Counted from the stretch's first letter, positions 3,953 through 22,943 are shown. The stretch is DNA of 44,386 bases from Candidatus Gastranaerophilales bacterium (GCA_944323875.1 CALUUH010000015.1:1-44386); one strand, 5' to 3'. The notes: generated by a model not told the origin, from the sequence alone. A program made the numbers and translations.

Positions 3953-4434
3953 AGCACACAATCATTATAAAAGCGGGGCAAAATTAAAATTGCCATTTAT
4001 ACACTTAATGTAAAGTTTATATTAAGAACATTTTTTGATTTATTTTCTAAAAATAGTATTCTTAAAAATACTTTATAAATATTTAGAACAAAAGTTATTT
4101 CGGCTATATTAAATATACCTTAAAAATGCAATTTTTTGAACTCGTTTTTTATGTAAATTTTTGTAACGATTTTTGACTTGGTGCACTTTTTCAGCCTTAA
4201 TTTAATCATTTTTTCTTTTGCATGCTTATATATTTATACAAATTTTTATGGAAATTGCATCCGTTCATATAGATAACGCTTTCCGATAATGTATATTTTT
4301 TCATTGCGCATTGTGCCTAAATATAATTCTGTATTTTAAACATTCTTGAAATAACAGTGCTGTAGAATGGTTATATGCGTCATTCAACCTTATCATATTC
4401 ATAAGTTGCTCTTATAATTTTGGGAGGCTTTGTT
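3953..4434. other. AT-rich divergent intergenic region
   Basis: About 480 bases between divergently transcribed genes. It is strongly AT-rich with no convincing ORF on either strand and no RNA gene I can recognise. The left end carries the leftward promoter. For the rightward gene there is a TATAAT at 4413-4418, but it lies only a few bases before the ribosome-binding site at 4422-4427, so it may not be used. Another TATAAT lies at 4322-4327, also without a well-spaced -35. Confidence 0.5.
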
Positions 4435-15940: not shown

Positions 15941-16309
15941 TCAATCTTTTCCACGGATTTTGTTAAATTTTTCAGCACACCATGCGATTGTATTGTCATA
16001 AGCCTCAGCAACACCTTCACCGATTTTTGCACATACATTTTTCGCGTTTGCCATAAATCCTTCCGGAGCTTCTATAGATGTTAACTTACCTTTTTTAGCG
16101 GCAACACCAAGTCCTACGGCTGCAGCTGCAAGTACTCCTACTGTCCATAAAAATGCTTTTAGTCCGGTATGTTTTTTCTTAGGTTTTTCAAAACTGTCAG
16201 CCGGCATTTCTGGAGCACTGCCTTGAGGCTGCTGCGGCTGAGAAAATTTACCTTCACGTTCCAAGATAGGATTACCTTTAAAATTTACACCTGATACAGA
16301 ATTTAACAT
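15941..16309 (-). CDS. Small membrane protein with N-terminal NFKG motif, probably truncated by a TGA
   Basis: The 122-residue product starts at an ATG with AGGAGG upstream. Residues 8-12 are VNFKG, the F-x-G motif shared with other proteins here; a Gln/Pro-rich stretch follows, then KPKKKH, one membrane helix (about 50-70) and a helical tail ending in RGKD. The stop is TGA, but the frame continues without another stop for 20 codons and then meets TAA TAG. The extension reads LKRDEMDQLIDEIASEIANS, a plausible amphipathic helix. A single change from TGG would restore a 143-residue protein. The function is unknown; it resembles small DUF883-like or helical anchor proteins only in layout. Confidence 0.7.
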   Translation of the reverse strand: MLNSVSGVNFKGNPILEREGKFSQPQQPQGSAPEMPADSFEKPKKKHTGLKAFLWTVGVLAAAAVGLGVAAKKGKLTSIEAPEGFMANAKNVCAKIGEGVAEAYDNTIAWCAEKFNKIRGKD

Positions 16310-16472
16310 ATAGAACCTCCTATTTTCACACTATTGGATACAGATATAAAACACCTGATAGTTTTATTTTGTCTAAAAAATCAGACAATTTCAATAATTG
16401 TAACAAAAGTTTACAAGAAAATGGAATATTTTTTATTCCCGTGTCATCTATATAAATAAGGAGAATTTTAAT

Positions 16473-17369
16473 ATGGAGTCACAACAGGATATTCTAATAT
16501 ATATTGAAGAGAACGATAAAAACGAAGCGCGTACTATTGCAGGCTCATTTGCCGATACTAATGTTAAAAATCGTGCGTATTTTAATATATTGGGAGCACG
16601 CCTTGCCGGCAGATATCTGGCAAGTGAAGGCATTGCCATGTCGCCGGTTGATAATCTCCATAATATACGCAAAGTGCTTGAAGAATTGGATATTTCAGAT
16701 GTTATACTGCCAAGAACACATATTGATGTAAGAATTGTCTTTGATGAAAAATATATCTTTATTCCGAAATCTCATTTTGAATTAAAAATCCAGCCGCATA
16801 TATACTTTGTGTTCCTGATGGCTAAGGATCAATCGCATGTGAAATTTTTAGGATTTATTGAATCTTCTGCAATAAATCAAGAATTGCAAAATCAGGAATA
16901 TTATTTTGTGGCAAAATCACAATTACAGCCGCCTGAAAATTTGAAATCTTATCTTGATAATGCGCAAACCTCCACCAGAACTGAGCTTTCTCAAGAGGAA
17001 TTGCAAAATTTTGAAGAAAGCATTATTGACATGGTTGACAACGATATCGCTTTGCTGGAAAGAAAAATATTATTAAAAGTTTTAACTAAAAATCAGGAAT
17101 TAAGAAATAAATTTATAGAATTCGAAAATTTTGAATTAATTTCCTACCGTGTGGCAAGTGAATATGACCTGCAAGAGCCTTCTGACGGGCAAAACGAACC
17201 GGAAACAACAGAGCCCGAAATAGAAAAAACTCCGCAGGATGAATTTGAAGTTTTTGAAAGTGCAGACGAATTTTTTGAAAATCTATCTCAAACGGAGGAT
17301 GTAAAATCTGAAAATATGTATAATGATATAGATGGAGAATTGTCTGCTGAGGCAGAAAATAATAATTAA
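16473..17369 (+). CDS. Possible DUF1822-like protein at the head of the sigma/TonB-like cluster
   Basis: A 298-residue soluble protein; the ATG has AAGGAG upstream. Residues about 85-165 alternate strands with a RIVFDEKYIFIPKSHFELK stretch, an LGFIES turn and KSQLQPPENLKSYL. From memory this resembles the cyanobacterial DUF1822 family, in which a leucine-rich LGF turn is followed by LPLSQLQPL; I cannot confirm it. The last 70 residues are acidic and disordered (many E, D, Q). The next gene begins 34 bases after its stop with a similarly acidic protein, and a sigma factor follows. In cyanobacteria I recall DUF1822 genes lying beside sigma factor genes, which fits this context. A regulatory or signalling role is an inference. 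Confidence 0.5.
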   Translation: MESQQDILIYIEENDKNEARTIAGSFADTNVKNRAYFNILGARLAGRYLASEGIAMSPVDNLHNIRKVLEELDISDVILPRTHIDVRIVFDEKYIFIPKSHFELKIQPHIYFVFLMAKDQSHVKFLGFIESSAINQELQNQEYYFVAKSQLQPPENLKSYLDNAQTSTRTELSQEELQNFEESIIDMVDNDIALLERKILLKVLTKNQELRNKFIEFENFELISYRVASEYDLQEPSDGQNEPETTEPEIEKTPQDEFEVFESADEFFENLSQTEDVKSENMYNDIDGELSAEAENNN

Positions 17370-17403
17370 TACCGAAAACTTAAGAATGTAAGGGGAATCC
17401 GTG

Positions 17404-19365
17404 ATGACTAAAGAAGAGGATAAATTACCGCTGAATACTGAAGAAGATTTAACACTTCCTAATCTGGAAGAAGGATTGAATATTGAAGAAATTCCTTCAA
17501 TTGAAGATTTAATTTCTCTGGATAAAGAAGAAATCGAAAAAATTCAGGAAACCGAAATTGCAAATGTATTCAAAAGCAATGAGGATACATCCGGAGTTTT
17601 TGAGGATAATATTGACCTTTCACCTGATATCAATACTGATTTTACCGAACAAAATCATCAGTTTGATACAAGTTTAGACAGTAATTTTGATAATATGAAT
17701 TTGTTTGATGAAGATACTCCTCTTACTCTTGATGAACCTCCTGCATTTGAACATAACTTTGATAATGATTTATCTTTTGATGAAGAACCGGAAATATCAG
17801 AAGAAACCTCCTCTGATAATGACTCCATGAGTGGAGATTTACCTGACTTAAATATTTCAGATGAACCGGTTATTAATTTTGATGAACAACAGGATATTTT
17901 TGCACAAGATGAAATAGAAATGCCTGAAATTGAAGAAGATAAACCATTAGAAACAGACAATGAACAGGCTGCAGCAGAACAGGAACAGGAAGAACACATT
18001 CATGACTCTATAGATGAACCTGTATTTGAAATGCCTGCTCTTGATGAGAATTTTGCAGATGACTCACAAGGTTTTAGTTTTCAAGATGAGTTTACCAGTA
18101 CAGAAGATACCAATCCTGTAGTCGAGCAGGAAGAAGCGATATTGGATGAACAAGAAAATTATGACATGCCGGCTGACTCAGAAGAAAATGAACCTGAATT
18201 ATCAGAAAACACTGAAATTTCAGACGAACAAACAGAACATGTTGATGACTCTGTTATGGCTGATGCATCCGAGCTTCCGGAAGTACATGAAATATCAGAA
18301 GATACTTTAATTCATGATGAACATATTCCGGAGGAAACTCCTAAGCATACGCGCACAACAGAAGATGTTTTTGCAAAAATTGACTCTCTGTTGAATGATG
18401 ACAGTGCATTTGAAGCAGGCAAGACACCCCCTCAAACAGAGCCGGCTCTTGAATTTACACCTGTTGAAGAAATGCCTAAACCAAAATATCGTTCAACTTT
18501 CAACCCTGCAAAATATATGAGAAAAAGCAGAAAAACTGAAAATACTGTCGAAATTGCAGAAAGAGAAGAAAAACTCGGTATTCTTTATGCGGCAAGAAAA
18601 GTGCTTGATAATATCAAGAATTTTAGTGAAGAACTCAGTGCAGGCGACAATCCGTCTATTGCAGAAATGTTAAACAGTGAAACAGGTAAAAAAGCACTCG
18701 TAACTGCAGCTGTTTGTGTCGTGGTACTCGGGGCCGGAATTGGCGGGGTAACACTTCTGAATAACAAGTCTGTAGAAGAAATAGAAACAATCAGCAAAAA
18801 TGACGTTTCAACACCGCTGGAAAGTCCGGCGGCTCAACAAAACGAACAGCCTGTTCAGCCTGCTGAAACAACTCCGGCTGCTGCTCCTCTGATTGACGAA
18901 AAGGCCAATGTATCAGCTGATGCGCCTGACATAAATCAAATTGAAAAACCTCAGTTAACAGTTAAGCAGGATGTAATAAAAGAAGAAGTTCAAAAACAGG
19001 TAAAACAGCAAAATCCTGAATCATATCTAACTGTTAAAAAAATCCAGTGGCAGGTCCCTGATTATCTTTCTTACAGTCCAAATATTAAATCCTATCTGCA
19101 AGCAGCAGGAAAGAGTATAAAATTAGGTCTGTCCAGCGATTTACTGCTTACAACAGAATACGCGTACTCAAATGTTGTCAAAGTAAATCTTAAACTCAAC
19201 AATTCCGGCGCTGTTCAAAATGCAAGTATCTCAACAAGCAGCGGTTCCAAAGAGATTGATAACATTGTGTTACAATCTGTTAAAAGTACCTTAAACGTAG
19301 TAAAACCGCCTGCCGGAGAGGTAAAAACACCTGATTTTAACTTAATACTTACAATATATTTGTAA
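17404..19365 (+). CDS. Long acidic protein with one membrane helix and a TonB-like C-terminal domain
   Basis: Start at the ATG at 17404, eight bases after AGGGG (the GTG at 17401 is also possible). The 653 residues have three parts. Residues 1 to about 365 are very acidic, rich in E, D and N, probably disordered and cytoplasmic. A basic stretch (SRKTENTVEIAEREEKL and nearby) precedes a single transmembrane helix at about 430-452. A Pro/Gln-rich linker leads to a C-terminal domain (about 540-653) ending VKVNLKLNNSGAVQNASIST, followed by SSG...ID...L.SVKSTL, a P-P pair and LILTIYL. This pattern matches the TonB C-terminal fold, found in energy transducers and envelope proteins. Unlike TonB, the cytoplasmic tail is huge, so a signal-relay role is more likely than classical transport (inference). 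Confidence 0.65.
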   Translation: MTKEEDKLPLNTEEDLTLPNLEEGLNIEEIPSIEDLISLDKEEIEKIQETEIANVFKSNEDTSGVFEDNIDLSPDINTDFTEQNHQFDTSLDSNFDNMNLFDEDTPLTLDEPPAFEHNFDNDLSFDEEPEISEETSSDNDSMSGDLPDLNISDEPVINFDEQQDIFAQDEIEMPEIEEDKPLETDNEQAAAEQEQEEHIHDSIDEPVFEMPALDENFADDSQGFSFQDEFTSTEDTNPVVEQEEAILDEQENYDMPADSEENEPELSENTEISDEQTEHVDDSVMADASELPEVHEISEDTLIHDEHIPEETPKHTRTTEDVFAKIDSLLNDDSAFEAGKTPPQTEPALEFTPVEEMPKPKYRSTFNPAKYMRKSRKTENTVEIAEREEKLGILYAARKVLDNIKNFSEELSAGDNPSIAEMLNSETGKKALVTAAVCVVVLGAGIGGVTLLNNKSVEEIETISKNDVSTPLESPAAQQNEQPVQPAETTPAAAPLIDEKANVSADAPDINQIEKPQLTVKQDVIKEEVQKQVKQQNPESYLTVKKIQWQVPDYLSYSPNIKSYLQAAGKSIKLGLSSDLLLTTEYAYSNVVKVNLKLNNSGAVQNASISTSSGSKEIDNIVLQSVKSTLNVVKPPAGEVKTPDFNLILTIYL

Positions 19366-19368
19366 ATA

Positions 19369-19377
19369 TGTTATAAT
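19369..19377 (+). promoter_or_regulatory. Extended -10 promoter upstream of the sigma factor gene
   Basis: TGTTATAAT in the short gap after the TonB-like gene, with CTTACA (19348-19353) 18 bases upstream of the hexamer as a possible -35. It would start transcription near 19384, just before the AAGGA ribosome-binding site, so the sigma gene can be expressed on its own as well as by readthrough. Confidence 0.55.
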
Positions 19378-19402
19378 GTCTTTGAGATAAGGAAAATTCA
19401 TA

Positions 19403-19972
19403 GTGGAAGAGTTAGCTCAAGACAAATTAGAACTAATATCCAAAATAATTAAAAATGATAAAAAGTTTGTAAATAATGAAGATTTATATGACGATTTCTT
19501 CAACGAAACTTGCAAGCGTAGTTTCCTCATCGCAAAAACAGTTAATTCCGAATCAACATTGACAACTTATGTCAGAAGAATAGCTTCTACCGCAATTCTT
19601 AATGTCCTGAAAGACCATGGCCGCTTGCGCCGTACAAGAGAAGGTTATAAGGCGACAAAAGAGGTCTCTCTTGAAGCGATAACTCCTGAGAGCATGGATT
19701 ATTCCAATGTGATTATACATTATGAGGCAGTTGACTTTGGTGATACTCCGGAAGATATTGTTATAAAAAAAGAAATTCTTAGACAGGTTCAGGATAATTT
19801 ATACAGAATAAATGCCGAAGAACCTGAAAAAAAATATTTACACCTTTATAAATTACGTTATGAAGATGGCATGACTCAAAAGGAAATTGCACAACAAATG
19901 CAGCTGTCACAGTCAGAAGTTTGCAAAAGACTGTTCAGGCTGCTTGAAAAAATAAAACAAGCCTTTAACTAA
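19403..19972 (+). CDS. Sigma-70 family RNA polymerase sigma factor
   Basis: Start GTG with AAGGA about nine bases upstream. The 189-residue protein has a region-2-like N-terminal part (about 25-80, with LTTYVRRIASTAILNVLKDHG and the arginine-rich RLRRTR that would contact -10 DNA) and a clear region 4 helix-turn-helix near 153-187 (MTQKEIAQQMQLSQSEVCKR). The short length and missing regions 1 and 3 fit an ECF-type or cyanobacterial minor sigma factor. It lies 16 bases before the zinc-ribbon ATPase gene and 37 after the TonB-like gene, so it may control or be controlled by these neighbours. No anti-sigma factor with a recognisable fold is present; the acidic tails of the two upstream proteins are candidates to hold it (speculation). 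Confidence 0.85.
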   Translation: MEELAQDKLELISKIIKNDKKFVNNEDLYDDFFNETCKRSFLIAKTVNSESTLTTYVRRIASTAILNVLKDHGRLRRTREGYKATKEVSLEAITPESMDYSNVIIHYEAVDFGDTPEDIVIKKEILRQVQDNLYRINAEEPEKKYLHLYKLRYEDGMTQKEIAQQMQLSQSEVCKRLFRLLEKIKQAFN

Positions 19973-19988
19973 ATCAGGATTACGGAAA

Positions 19989-22943
19989 ATGAAATGCCCG
20001 ACATGTAAAAAAGATATTCCGGACGACTCGCTTAAATGTCCATACTGCAAGACCAGAACAGGTCTTGTTTGTCCGGCGTGCAATACCGTAAATTCTGTTT
20101 TTAATCTTACCTGCAAAACTTGCGGGCAGGAAATTTTAAAAGTTTGCCAACACTGCAGCGCCGTAAACTTTTTAGATGCAAAAAAATGCAGGAAATGCGG
20201 ATTCCCGTTTGAAGAAGAGGAACAACCGGAACAGGTACAGGCAAATACTTTTGAACTACCTCCGCAAATATTGCCGCAATTGACAGCAAAACATATTCTT
20301 GTAAAAGGCATTCTGTCAAAGGATAAAAAAATCTTTTCAATCAGCGGTAAAAAAGGCTCCGGCAAAACCGTTGTTCTGCGTTCTGTCATGGAAGAAATGA
20401 ATAAGCACGAATACTCCTGGATTTACGGAAAATGCACCCCTATCACCCAGTTGACGGCCGGCGGAGTCATTCAGGATATTCTCTTAAATATTTTTTCTCT
20501 GCCAAATTTTTGCATTGACAATCCGCAATTCAGAAAAGATTTCGGTAAATTTTTCCAGAATGAATTTCCTTTCCTCTCTAACAGTGAAACTGAATTACTG
20601 ATGAATTTTCTATACCCTGTCAAGCTTGGTATATTTGAAGATTTGTTCAAAAACAAAGCGAAAACTTATGACTTACTTAATAAATTATTCGACGATATTT
20701 TAGAGGGGCGTAAATTTGTTATAACTATTGATAATTTTGATTTTATAGACGGATTTTCTTATGAATTTTTGTCAAAACTTATTCAGCGTGATAATGTCAA
20801 AGACAATCTGAAAATGCTCCTTGTCTATAACGAGCAAAAGTCTGCTAAAGCATATTTCTCATTGCCGGATAATCCTTATCTTGATGTGACAATTGCTCCG
20901 CTTGAAACCTCTCAGGTTAATCAGGTAGTCTCTCAGAAAAAAGAGAATTTAGAAGATTTTCTGGCGCTTAATCCGGCAGAAATAACAGATCTTTTACAAA
21001 AAAGCAAAGGCAATCCGGCGTTTATTGAACAAACATTATGTCTGCGTTTTGACTGTCAGATAGCAGACAAACCATTCGGCATTCCGGTAAACTTTTCAGA
21101 TATTTTGAGTTACAGGCTGGAGATTTTAAAAATCATCAACCCTATAGCTTACAAAATCCTTGTCGGAGCATCTGTAATCGGAGATAAAATAAACATCAAT
21201 CTCGTAAAAGAAATATTTGAACTTGATGATGAAAAATTTTCAGATATTCTGGCATATCTTGAACAAATGAGTTTTATCACACCGCTAAACGATATATTTT
21301 ATGAGTTCAAGAGTTTAACCCTGTGGGAAACAATCATAAAAAATGCAAAAAAAGCCGACTGTTTTGAAAGCATAAATGAAAAAGTTTTTTATGCGATAAA
21401 AGATTTCATCATGAACTCAAATGCAATACCGGCAATAATTGCACAAAATCTTAAAAATCCGCAAATGGCGCTTGAAATATGGACAAAAAACACGCGTCTG
21501 GGAGCTTATGTCGGAGATGTAAATTTATATGCTATTTCACAAAAACAATGTCTTGCTTTGATAAATGAAATGGACGACAGCGAAACTTTGCATATAAGAT
21601 TTAACATAGCCGAAAGATTGGGCAAACTTCTTGCGGAGGCAAACCCGAAAGAAGCAATGGAGTATCTGCCGGACGCAATATCAAACGCGCAGGCTGTCGG
21701 AGACACTCCGAAAGAAATAGAGCTTCTTGCATATCTTTCCAAATGCTGCCGCAAAACCGGCAATTATTTCGGAGAAGTTGAATGCATAGATTCTGTATTA
21801 GACAAAACAAATCCGGAAAAAACGCTTGAAATAGCTTTATTAAAAGCTTCAAAATTAAACGCACTGTTAAATATCGGAAACCTCGGCCAAATAGTCAATA
21901 TGGTTGACACAGAAATCATGCCTGTATTTGACAACATTCTAAGCAGAAAATACAAGCGCCGCGACATTCCTGTGGAATTTGTTTATGAAAGCTGGTTAAA
22001 GACTTATCTTGTACTTGCCAATGCGCTTGTAATGCAGGGCAATGACAGATCGTTTGAAATATTAACTATTTTATTTGATATAATTGACCGTCATCAGCTT
22101 GAAGATGAATTGTTTATATGCAACTGCAAATTAACTCTTGCATTTGCCAATACAATGAAAGGCGACCTCAAAACATCTAAAAAAATCCTTGAAGAAATTT
22201 TGAAAAATCATAAAGATGACAGTATGGATGCTGATGCTGTTTTACGCTGGAATTTTATCAATATAATAAATAATTTTCTCGTACAAAATTATAACGGTAT
22301 GCAGCAGGATTTATTCCAGATTGTTACATACGCAAACAACAACGGTGATAACTTTACAAAAAATATCCTGAAAACGCTTCTTGGTAAAATATTCAAAGAC
22401 AATGAACAAACCAAACATGCAATGGATATTTATAACGAGCAGATTACATATTTTGCTAAAGAAAAAATGGCAACCGGAGCACTTTTGACCTGGTATTTAA
22501 TTGCAGACGCGGCATTAATCACCGAAGGCGCAAAAACAGCCATAGATATTGCATCGCAGGCTCTGGAAGTTGCCCAGAGTCCGAAAATCAATAATTATTT
22601 CTTTGCAGCACTTTTAAAAACAGTTATTGCAAAAGCGTTCATAACGCTTTCGGATTATGAAGCGGCAAAAATGAATATAGAAAGTGCTCTTGTTCTGACA
22701 CAGAGATATAATATGATGGATTTGAGTTCCAGAATATTACTTTTATTCGGTAAATATTATCAGGAAATAGGTCTGATTAAATCACCACAGCAGACAGAAT
22801 ATCTAACAGCCTCCGGCAAATTATATCAAAAGGCTTCCGAGATAGTTAAAGAGACCAAGAACAAATATGTTCATAAACAAATAGAAAAGGCAAAACAAGT
22901 TTTGCGTTCCTTCTGTAACATCAACGGCATAAAGATAAAGTAA
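19989..22943 (+). CDS. Large protein with three zinc ribbons, an AAA/STAND-type ATPase domain and TPR-like repeats
   Basis: The 984-residue protein begins with three regular zinc ribbons: C3/C6/C17/C20, C28/C31/C42/C45 and C53/C56/C67/C70, each CX2C-X10-CX2C. An ATPase domain follows, with Walker A GKKGSGKT at 120-127 and Walker B FVITIDNFD near 243-251, then a winged-helix-like segment near 370-440. The rest, from about 500 to 980, is helical with TPR-like pairs. This layout resembles the ATPase/TPR halves of signal-transduction ATPases with numerous domains (AfsR, MalT or cyclase-linked types), without any visible output domain. The N-terminal ribbons are unusual. It may sense a protein or nucleotide signal for the sigma factor encoded 16 bases upstream; that is inference. 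No signal peptide, so it is cytoplasmic. Confidence 0.75.
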   Translation: MKCPTCKKDIPDDSLKCPYCKTRTGLVCPACNTVNSVFNLTCKTCGQEILKVCQHCSAVNFLDAKKCRKCGFPFEEEEQPEQVQANTFELPPQILPQLTAKHILVKGILSKDKKIFSISGKKGSGKTVVLRSVMEEMNKHEYSWIYGKCTPITQLTAGGVIQDILLNIFSLPNFCIDNPQFRKDFGKFFQNEFPFLSNSETELLMNFLYPVKLGIFEDLFKNKAKTYDLLNKLFDDILEGRKFVITIDNFDFIDGFSYEFLSKLIQRDNVKDNLKMLLVYNEQKSAKAYFSLPDNPYLDVTIAPLETSQVNQVVSQKKENLEDFLALNPAEITDLLQKSKGNPAFIEQTLCLRFDCQIADKPFGIPVNFSDILSYRLEILKIINPIAYKILVGASVIGDKININLVKEIFELDDEKFSDILAYLEQMSFITPLNDIFYEFKSLTLWETIIKNAKKADCFESINEKVFYAIKDFIMNSNAIPAIIAQNLKNPQMALEIWTKNTRLGAYVGDVNLYAISQKQCLALINEMDDSETLHIRFNIAERLGKLLAEANPKEAMEYLPDAISNAQAVGDTPKEIELLAYLSKCCRKTGNYFGEVECIDSVLDKTNPEKTLEIALLKASKLNALLNIGNLGQIVNMVDTEIMPVFDNILSRKYKRRDIPVEFVYESWLKTYLVLANALVMQGNDRSFEILTILFDIIDRHQLEDELFICNCKLTLAFANTMKGDLKTSKKILEEILKNHKDDSMDADAVLRWNFINIINNFLVQNYNGMQQDLFQIVTYANNNGDNFTKNILKTLLGKIFKDNEQTKHAMDIYNEQITYFAKEKMATGALLTWYLIADAALITEGAKTAIDIASQALEVAQSPKINNYFFAALLKTVIAKAFITLSDYEAAKMNIESALVLTQRYNMMDLSSRILLLFGKYYQEIGLIKSPQQTEYLTASGKLYQKASEIVKETKNKYVHKQIEKAKQVLRSFCNINGIKIK

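Follow-up and report, generated by a model that had tools for sequence, protein, structure and literature searches.

The DNA stretch analyzed here (the window) is a 44.4-kb contig from a 1.94-Mb genome of Candidatus Gastranaerophilales, non-photosynthetic gut Melainabacteria. Between positions 16473 and 22943 it holds four genes, here named A to D, that appear to encode an extracytoplasmic function (ECF) sigma factor (C), its membrane-linked inhibitor in two pieces (A and B) and a large STAND-type ATPase (D). All four open reading frames (ORFs) lie on the + strand, with gaps of 31 (A-B), 37 (B-C) and 16 (C-D) bases; a first-pass annotation of the sequence had proposed four adjacent, co-directional genes with gaps of 16 to 37 bases, and both the ORFs and their spacing were found again.

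16473 to 17369, + strand: gene A, 298 amino acids; predicted anti-sigma protein, soluble in the window's genus
17401 to 19365, + strand: gene B, 654 amino acids, GTG start; acidic cytoplasmic region, one transmembrane helix, periplasmic TonB-like domain
19403 to 19972, + strand: gene C, 189 amino acids, GTG start; predicted ECF sigma factor
19989 to 22943, + strand: gene D, 984 amino acids; triple zinc ribbon, predicted STAND ATPase, helical repeats

A comparison of gene order, suggested in the same annotation, found the block kept in Candidatus Gastranaerophilales rather than scattered among relatives, whose genomes are named Candidatus Gastranaerophilales or Melainabacteria and are mostly of animal-gut origin. 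A relative of D is present in 57 of 59 related genomes. Among the best 80 of 305 relatives, a set made up of the closest ones in which distant relatives are under-represented, C lies directly 5' of D at every locus (80/80), and a TonB-type protein is encoded 5' of C wherever the contig extends far enough. This adjacency of C and D exceeds chance. The 101 loci tabulated correspond to about 95 distinct ones, a few being duplicate records from the genome search. C follows the A-B gene in most loci of the order, including loci with D elsewhere. Several families have D by itself, with A-B and the sigma gene persisting elsewhere, as would be expected if D were only co-transcribed and unrelated to the sigma/anti-sigma pair. 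Against such an incidental association, which we regard as improbable, stand the strict adjacency of C and D throughout most of family f1, the gaps being short, and their adjacency in families f5 and f7 as well. The locus is single and stable in nearly all genomes of the family, with no patchiness in its presence. Conservation of the genes downstream of 22943 (from 23044 onward) was not seen beyond the nearest genomes. The distances of A, B, C and D are correlated (0.91 to 0.95); this was considered as evidence of partnership and set aside, as shared descent alone explains it.

Domain architecture and the predicted sigma/anti-sigma pair

Domain searches, profile comparisons and AlphaFold models (scored by the predicted local distance difference test, pLDDT) divided the proteins as follows.

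16485 to 16973, + strand: A residues 5-167, DUF1822-like domain (hhalign; orthologs over the Pfam cut-off)
16992 to 17162, + strand: A residues 174-230, predicted class I anti-sigma domain, Hx3Cx2C zinc motif lost (profile, fold and orthologs)
17166 to 17366, + strand: A residues 232-298, acidic disordered tail (AlphaFold pLDDT under 50)
18694 to 18756, + strand: B residues ~432-452, membrane helix (hydropathy maximum 2.35)
19165 to 19326, + strand: B residues 589-642, TonB C-terminal domain (PF13103 and TIGR01352 over cut-off)
19989 to 20204, + strand: D residues 1-72, three zinc ribbons (12 invariant Cys)
20301 to 20810, + strand: D residues 105-274, P-loop ATPase (Walker A GKKGSGKT at 120-127, IDNFD at 247-251)
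21456 to 22922, + strand: D residues ~490-978, helical repeats resembling tetratricopeptide repeats (TPR) (AlphaFold model, pLDDT mostly over 85)

C matches TIGR02937 over residues 2-187 (72.7 bits, cut-off 42.9), with Sigma70_r4 over its cut-off and Sigma70_r2 weak at 14.2 bits (cut-off 24). Taking sigma regions 2 and 4 with no region 3 as the mark of the ECF group (group IV), the sequence places C in that group, and none of the curated ECF subfamily models came near its cut-off. In L046:5642-7072 (476 amino acids) and L059:8911-9801 (296 amino acids) the sigma protein, usually of ~190 amino acids, is lengthened by a long acidic stretch that separates regions 2 and 4. In family f3 (L293, L298, L299, L302 and L307) the sigma gene is followed, at the place of D, by a gene for a small, probably secreted protein of ~180 to 195 amino acids with a shared motif.

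Profile, model and ortholog evidence together indicate that gene A carries a class I anti-sigma domain at residues ~174-230. When the profile of A was compared with the PDB, RsiW, the anti-sigma factor of SigW, was the sole significant match (E = 8.8e-4, residues 178-229), and Pfam zf-HC2 scored over its cut-off in two orthologs, L048 and L055. The AlphaFold model has helices at 174-188, 194-204 and 208-230, and the best fold match for residues 174-228 was AlgU-bound MucA (VIA-align Z = 7.3, 54 residues, root mean square deviation 2.2); a Foldseek match of the same region to MucA-AlgU (probability 0.66, E = 1 to 4) is not significant by itself. Residues ~184-213 of A align over the H-x3-C-x2-C motif of the fused proteins L048, L050 and L055. 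Gene A is thus likely to be identifiable as the partner of the sigma factor through this domain and not through its acidic tail, and we infer that A binds and inhibits C.

The N-terminal half of A, and only that half, aligns at residues 5-167 with DUF1822 proteins of photosynthetic cyanobacteria (hhalign profile-profile, probability 97.9, E = 5.7e-13), and DUF1822 (PF08852) scores 33.7 bits against a cut-off of 25 in the same-genus ortholog G002. This domain (16485-16973) also resembles PD-(D/E)XK nuclease folds, including Holliday resolvases, SPARDA and DpnI (Z = 5 to 8). A nuclease role was considered and not adopted, the matches being borderline at these Z scores and the catalytic residues apparently not intact; it is retained as a lead only.

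B is strongly acidic at its N-terminal end, with 117 D/E against 13 K/R in residues 1-370, and its TonB C-terminal domain is over both cut-offs (PF13103, 24.3 bits against 22; TIGR01352, 28.1 against 27.1). Almost all loci from outside the window's genus have A and B as one ORF of ~650 to 1,800 amino acids with a net charge of -35 to -327, in which the DUF1822-like domain is followed by the anti-sigma domain, an acidic linker, a membrane helix and the periplasmic TonB-like domain. The split was found in all genomes of the window's genus examined and once more, in L045; the acidic stretches of A and B thus together correspond to a single linker cut in two.

An ECF sigma factor, a predicted anti-sigma protein with one transmembrane helix and a TonB-like periplasmic domain together recall the FecI/FecR/FecA cell-surface systems, which likewise have an ECF sigma factor controlled by a protein with a single transmembrane helix and in which the TonB-like domain could read an outer-membrane receptor. 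However, the Plug domain of TonB-dependent receptors was found in 0/6 genus genomes, with positive search controls, and domain searches of these proteins found no FecR domain. The lack of a Plug domain led us to set aside a FecA-type reading, and a FecI/FecR-type system of any form is a very remote prospect here; with no TonB-dependent receptors found in the genus, the TonB-like domain of B probably has another ligand.

In Pfam, D matches a double zinc ribbon and AAA_16 over cut-off, and 12/12 ribbon cysteines are invariant among 16 homologs. Its AlphaFold model (mean pLDDT 87.8) has the STAND-TPR protein 6mfv as its best PDB match (E = 1.6e-11); Apaf-1 and MalT likewise score high, and Avs3 is among the fold matches. 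By sequence and model, D has the P-loop ATPase, winged helix and repeat scaffold that define STAND proteins. It shares the ATPase, winged-helix region and helical repeats with 6mfv and MalT, but differs in its three N-terminal zinc ribbons, and a MalT-type DNA-binding domain was not found. A search of D for a CHAT domain gave no match at E ≤ 1. A paralog of D (L068:7862-11395, G000:C3) has a triple zinc ribbon, ~1,180 amino acids and an extra domain, and, judged by eye, the gene 3' of the paralog in L068, L069 and L071 resembles glycogen synthase. A degenerate nucleotide-cyclase domain was considered in longer relatives of D and rejected, PF00211 appearing in 1/15 members (E = 0.049) and the profile finding nothing in the PDB.

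The first-pass annotation had named four products. A small sigma-70 family factor (C) agrees with the TIGR02937 match over cut-off, and a 984-residue zinc-ribbon/STAND-type ATPase with TPR repeats (D) with Pfam, the invariant cysteines and the STAND fold with helical repeats; for B, composition, helix and domain models bear out a membrane protein with a long acidic cytoplasmic part and a periplasmic TonB-like domain. For gene A, the DUF1822-like family (through ortholog G002 and hhalign) and the acidic tail stood, while the anti-sigma domain had been overlooked. Likewise overlooked was that genes 1 and 2 are one protein in most relatives.

The regulatory region

The annotation had further missed an ECF-type promoter, an HLR1-like box and a conserved divergent neighbor (U), all upstream of A.

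16422 to 16448, + strand: ECF-type promoter TGGAATA-N12-GTGTCATC, conserved in almost every one of the 84 upstream regions aligned
16400 to 16417, + strand: HLR1-like box GTAACAAAAGTTTACAAG, RpaB-type, two mismatches to the 18-base consensus, one per repeat
15941 to 16309, - strand: gene U, divergent small protein of 122 amino acids with a single transmembrane helix, sharing the regulatory region with the operon

Over the 84 upstream regions, conservation reaches 99% at the last C of the promoter and 96% at its second G; the alignment was anchored on GGAA, so that the conservation of this anchor is in part built in. Each of six genus genomes had this promoter as its only site at 0 to 1 mismatches, always 5' of this operon, and a similar site lies 5' of A-B in several of the order's other families. 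Uniqueness at this threshold implies autoregulation, and C probably reads the operon's own predicted promoter. A wider regulon was sought and not adopted: at 2 mismatches there were 33 extra sites in the six genomes against 12 for the control, none clearly shared as a promoter.

Just 5' of the promoter lies a 10-bp direct repeat, (G/T)TTACAAAAN(G/T)TTACA, at fixed spacing in most of the 84 regions. This repeat has the form of HLR1, the site bound by RpaB in cyanobacteria (PMC9241938; PMC11633204, the source of the consensus used here). The HLR1 pattern has 18 matches in the window's genome, 17/18 of them intergenic, against 1 for a reversed control, an enrichment pointing to an RpaB-type regulon in non-photosynthetic Melainabacteria. 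The genome encodes an RpaB equivalog (363 bits, cut-off 330), and RpaB would be the protein that binds the operon's box. Homologs of RpaB and NblS in Melainabacteria were noted in 2013, their role unknown (PMC3787301). A similar excess of HLR1 matches was seen in relatives of the family; one box lies in the window at 4150-4167 (- strand), and boxes also occur in L319-L334.

Members of the U family lie just upstream of the anti-sigma gene in 78/92 loci, with 8 more in which a spurious ORF lies between, and U had no Pfam or NCBIfam match. A short N-terminal motif, (V/I/N)xFxG, as in MLNSVSGVNFKG, is enriched near protein starts, in U (15941-16309) and others (21 against 2.4 expected, a count inflated by orthologs).

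A candidate switch and its place among known systems

From the domains, conserved gene order, promoter and box identified computationally at the locus, we propose, with a probability of roughly two in three, that the operon is an autoregulated switch of an ECF sigma factor and a membrane anti-sigma protein, with the STAND protein D as co-regulator or main output. What had first been suggested for these genes, a signalling unit that runs from the membrane to transcription and combines a periplasmic domain, a sigma factor in the cytoplasm and a STAND protein driven by ATP, is supported in this form. The A-B membrane protein of most relatives would hold C by its cytoplasmic anti-sigma domain while its periplasmic TonB-like domain senses the envelope; upon a signal C would be released and would transcribe its own operon, giving positive feedback. 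The HLR1-type box could be a second input, most likely through RpaB, which would probably tune the operon. In the window's genus, where the protein is split, the soluble A would have to contact B or receive its signal from D. D, encoded on the same mRNA, most likely acts as a sensor in the cytoplasm, and in its ATP-loaded, assembled state it might act on the A-C pair and shift the A-sigma balance.

Alternatively, D may be the main product of the switch, doing the cellular work itself, for example as a STAND effector or scaffold. The single promoter favors this role, the ECF-type site being found at this operon alone in the six genomes, and the cargo downstream of the sigma gene varies by family, as with the small, probably secreted protein in part of family f3. 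D also exists outside this regulon, unlinked D genes having no such promoter, and cyanobacterial DUF1822 modules place a sensor-type protein third, for which reason D as a co-regulator is slightly preferred. D as the output is a serious possibility, to which we give less than even odds.

Several results weigh against the proposed switch. The A protein of the window had no Pfam match at E ≤ 1, hence neither DUF1822 nor zf-HC2, and it lacks the zinc motif Hx3Cx2C. The motif is present in 17/46 loci sampled; it occurs at residue ~200-211 in 14/16 order-level loci with D non-adjacent, is missing in 27/30 D-adjacent loci, and is mostly intact in other families of the order, where A-B and C occur together without D. 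A loss driven by D joining the operon was considered and rejected, as the tree holds too few independent changes (four of the motif, five of adjacency). Since ~44% of class I anti-sigma domains are without these zinc ligands (PMC7406223), their loss is ordinary for the family. The HLR1 copy in the window is imperfect, whereas most relatives' copies fit the consensus, and no promoter targets beyond the operon were found in the six genus genomes. Unlinked D genes, tried as members of the ECF regulon, had no ECF-type promoter above background; together with the non-adjacency of D in much of the order, this means that D is not an obligate partner.

The nearest described pairs are RsiW-SigW and MucA-AlgU, which have in common with this operon a cytoplasmic helical anti-sigma domain (RsiW by profile, MucA by fold), an adjoining ECF sigma factor, a membrane anchor and an ECF-type promoter at the operon. 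In contrast, the anti-sigma domain here follows a DUF1822 domain and is separated from the distant membrane helix by a long acidic linker; the periplasmic portion resembles TonB, and the protein is split in two in the window's genus.

Photosynthetic cyanobacteria offer a second comparison. Their DUF1822 genes are commonly flanked by a sigma-like gene on one side and a CHAT protein on the other, the sigma assignment being firm in some loci and weak or absent in others, and a CHAT protein follows the DUF1822 gene in 12/14 tested, mostly CHAT-CHASE2 and once CHAT-nSTAND. Sigma-like, DUF1822 and CHAT-CHASE2 genes often stand in a row (L102-L121), a widespread module for whose function we found no paper. 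In both arrangements a sigma-like gene and a DUF1822 protein stand beside a large protein of switch or sensor type (the third gene). In the cyanobacterial modules, however, the sigma gene comes first, a DUF1822 C-terminal half replaces the anti-sigma domain and transmembrane helix, and the third protein contains CHAT, for which D has no match. The operon is best read as a variant of these modules.

ECF sigma factors and DUF1822 were mentioned in passing in a survey of cyanobacterial caspase-type neighborhoods (PMC8195603), and in CASP (type III-E CRISPR: Csx30, CASP-sigma and TPR-CHAT) a CHAT protease cleaves the inhibitor of an ECF sigma factor (PMC10028731). The operon might then be a conflict or immunity module akin to CASP or to the cyanobacterial EACC2-caspase/ECF/DUF1822 neighborhoods, with D as the sensor of invaders, a role frequent in STAND proteins and compatible with Avs3 among its fold matches. 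Both CASP and the operon combine, at a single locus, an ECF sigma factor with an inhibitor and a large protein gated by a signal, but the operon has neither Cas proteins nor a CHAT protease. PADLOC gave no relevant match, only weak helix-turn-helix matches of C; no protease or effector domain was found, and a single, stable, non-patchy locus also argues against such a module, which we consider quite unlikely.

The operon is real, conserved and not described as such in the literature searched, and its parts are of known kinds; the first-pass statement that no described system has these parts was overstated, given the published mention of sigma and DUF1822 neighborhoods (PMC8195603) and the familiar nature of sigma/anti-sigma pairs. 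More tentatively, and at odds well below even, it may represent a new class of sigma switch, a membrane anti-sigma protein of DUF1822 type being gated by a STAND ATPase and RpaB, the light/redox regulator of cyanobacteria, exerting control via HLR1 boxes in non-photosynthetic gut bacteria. If so, RpaB would have its first defined target among non-photosynthetic cyanobacterial relatives, within the literature searched. The operon also bears directly on the question, open since 2013 (PMC3787301), of what RpaB does in relatives without photosynthesis. It links the unexplained cyanobacterial DUF1822 family to sigma control, and an uncultured gut order gains a concrete, testable envelope signalling pathway with a named sigma factor, inhibitor and promoter.

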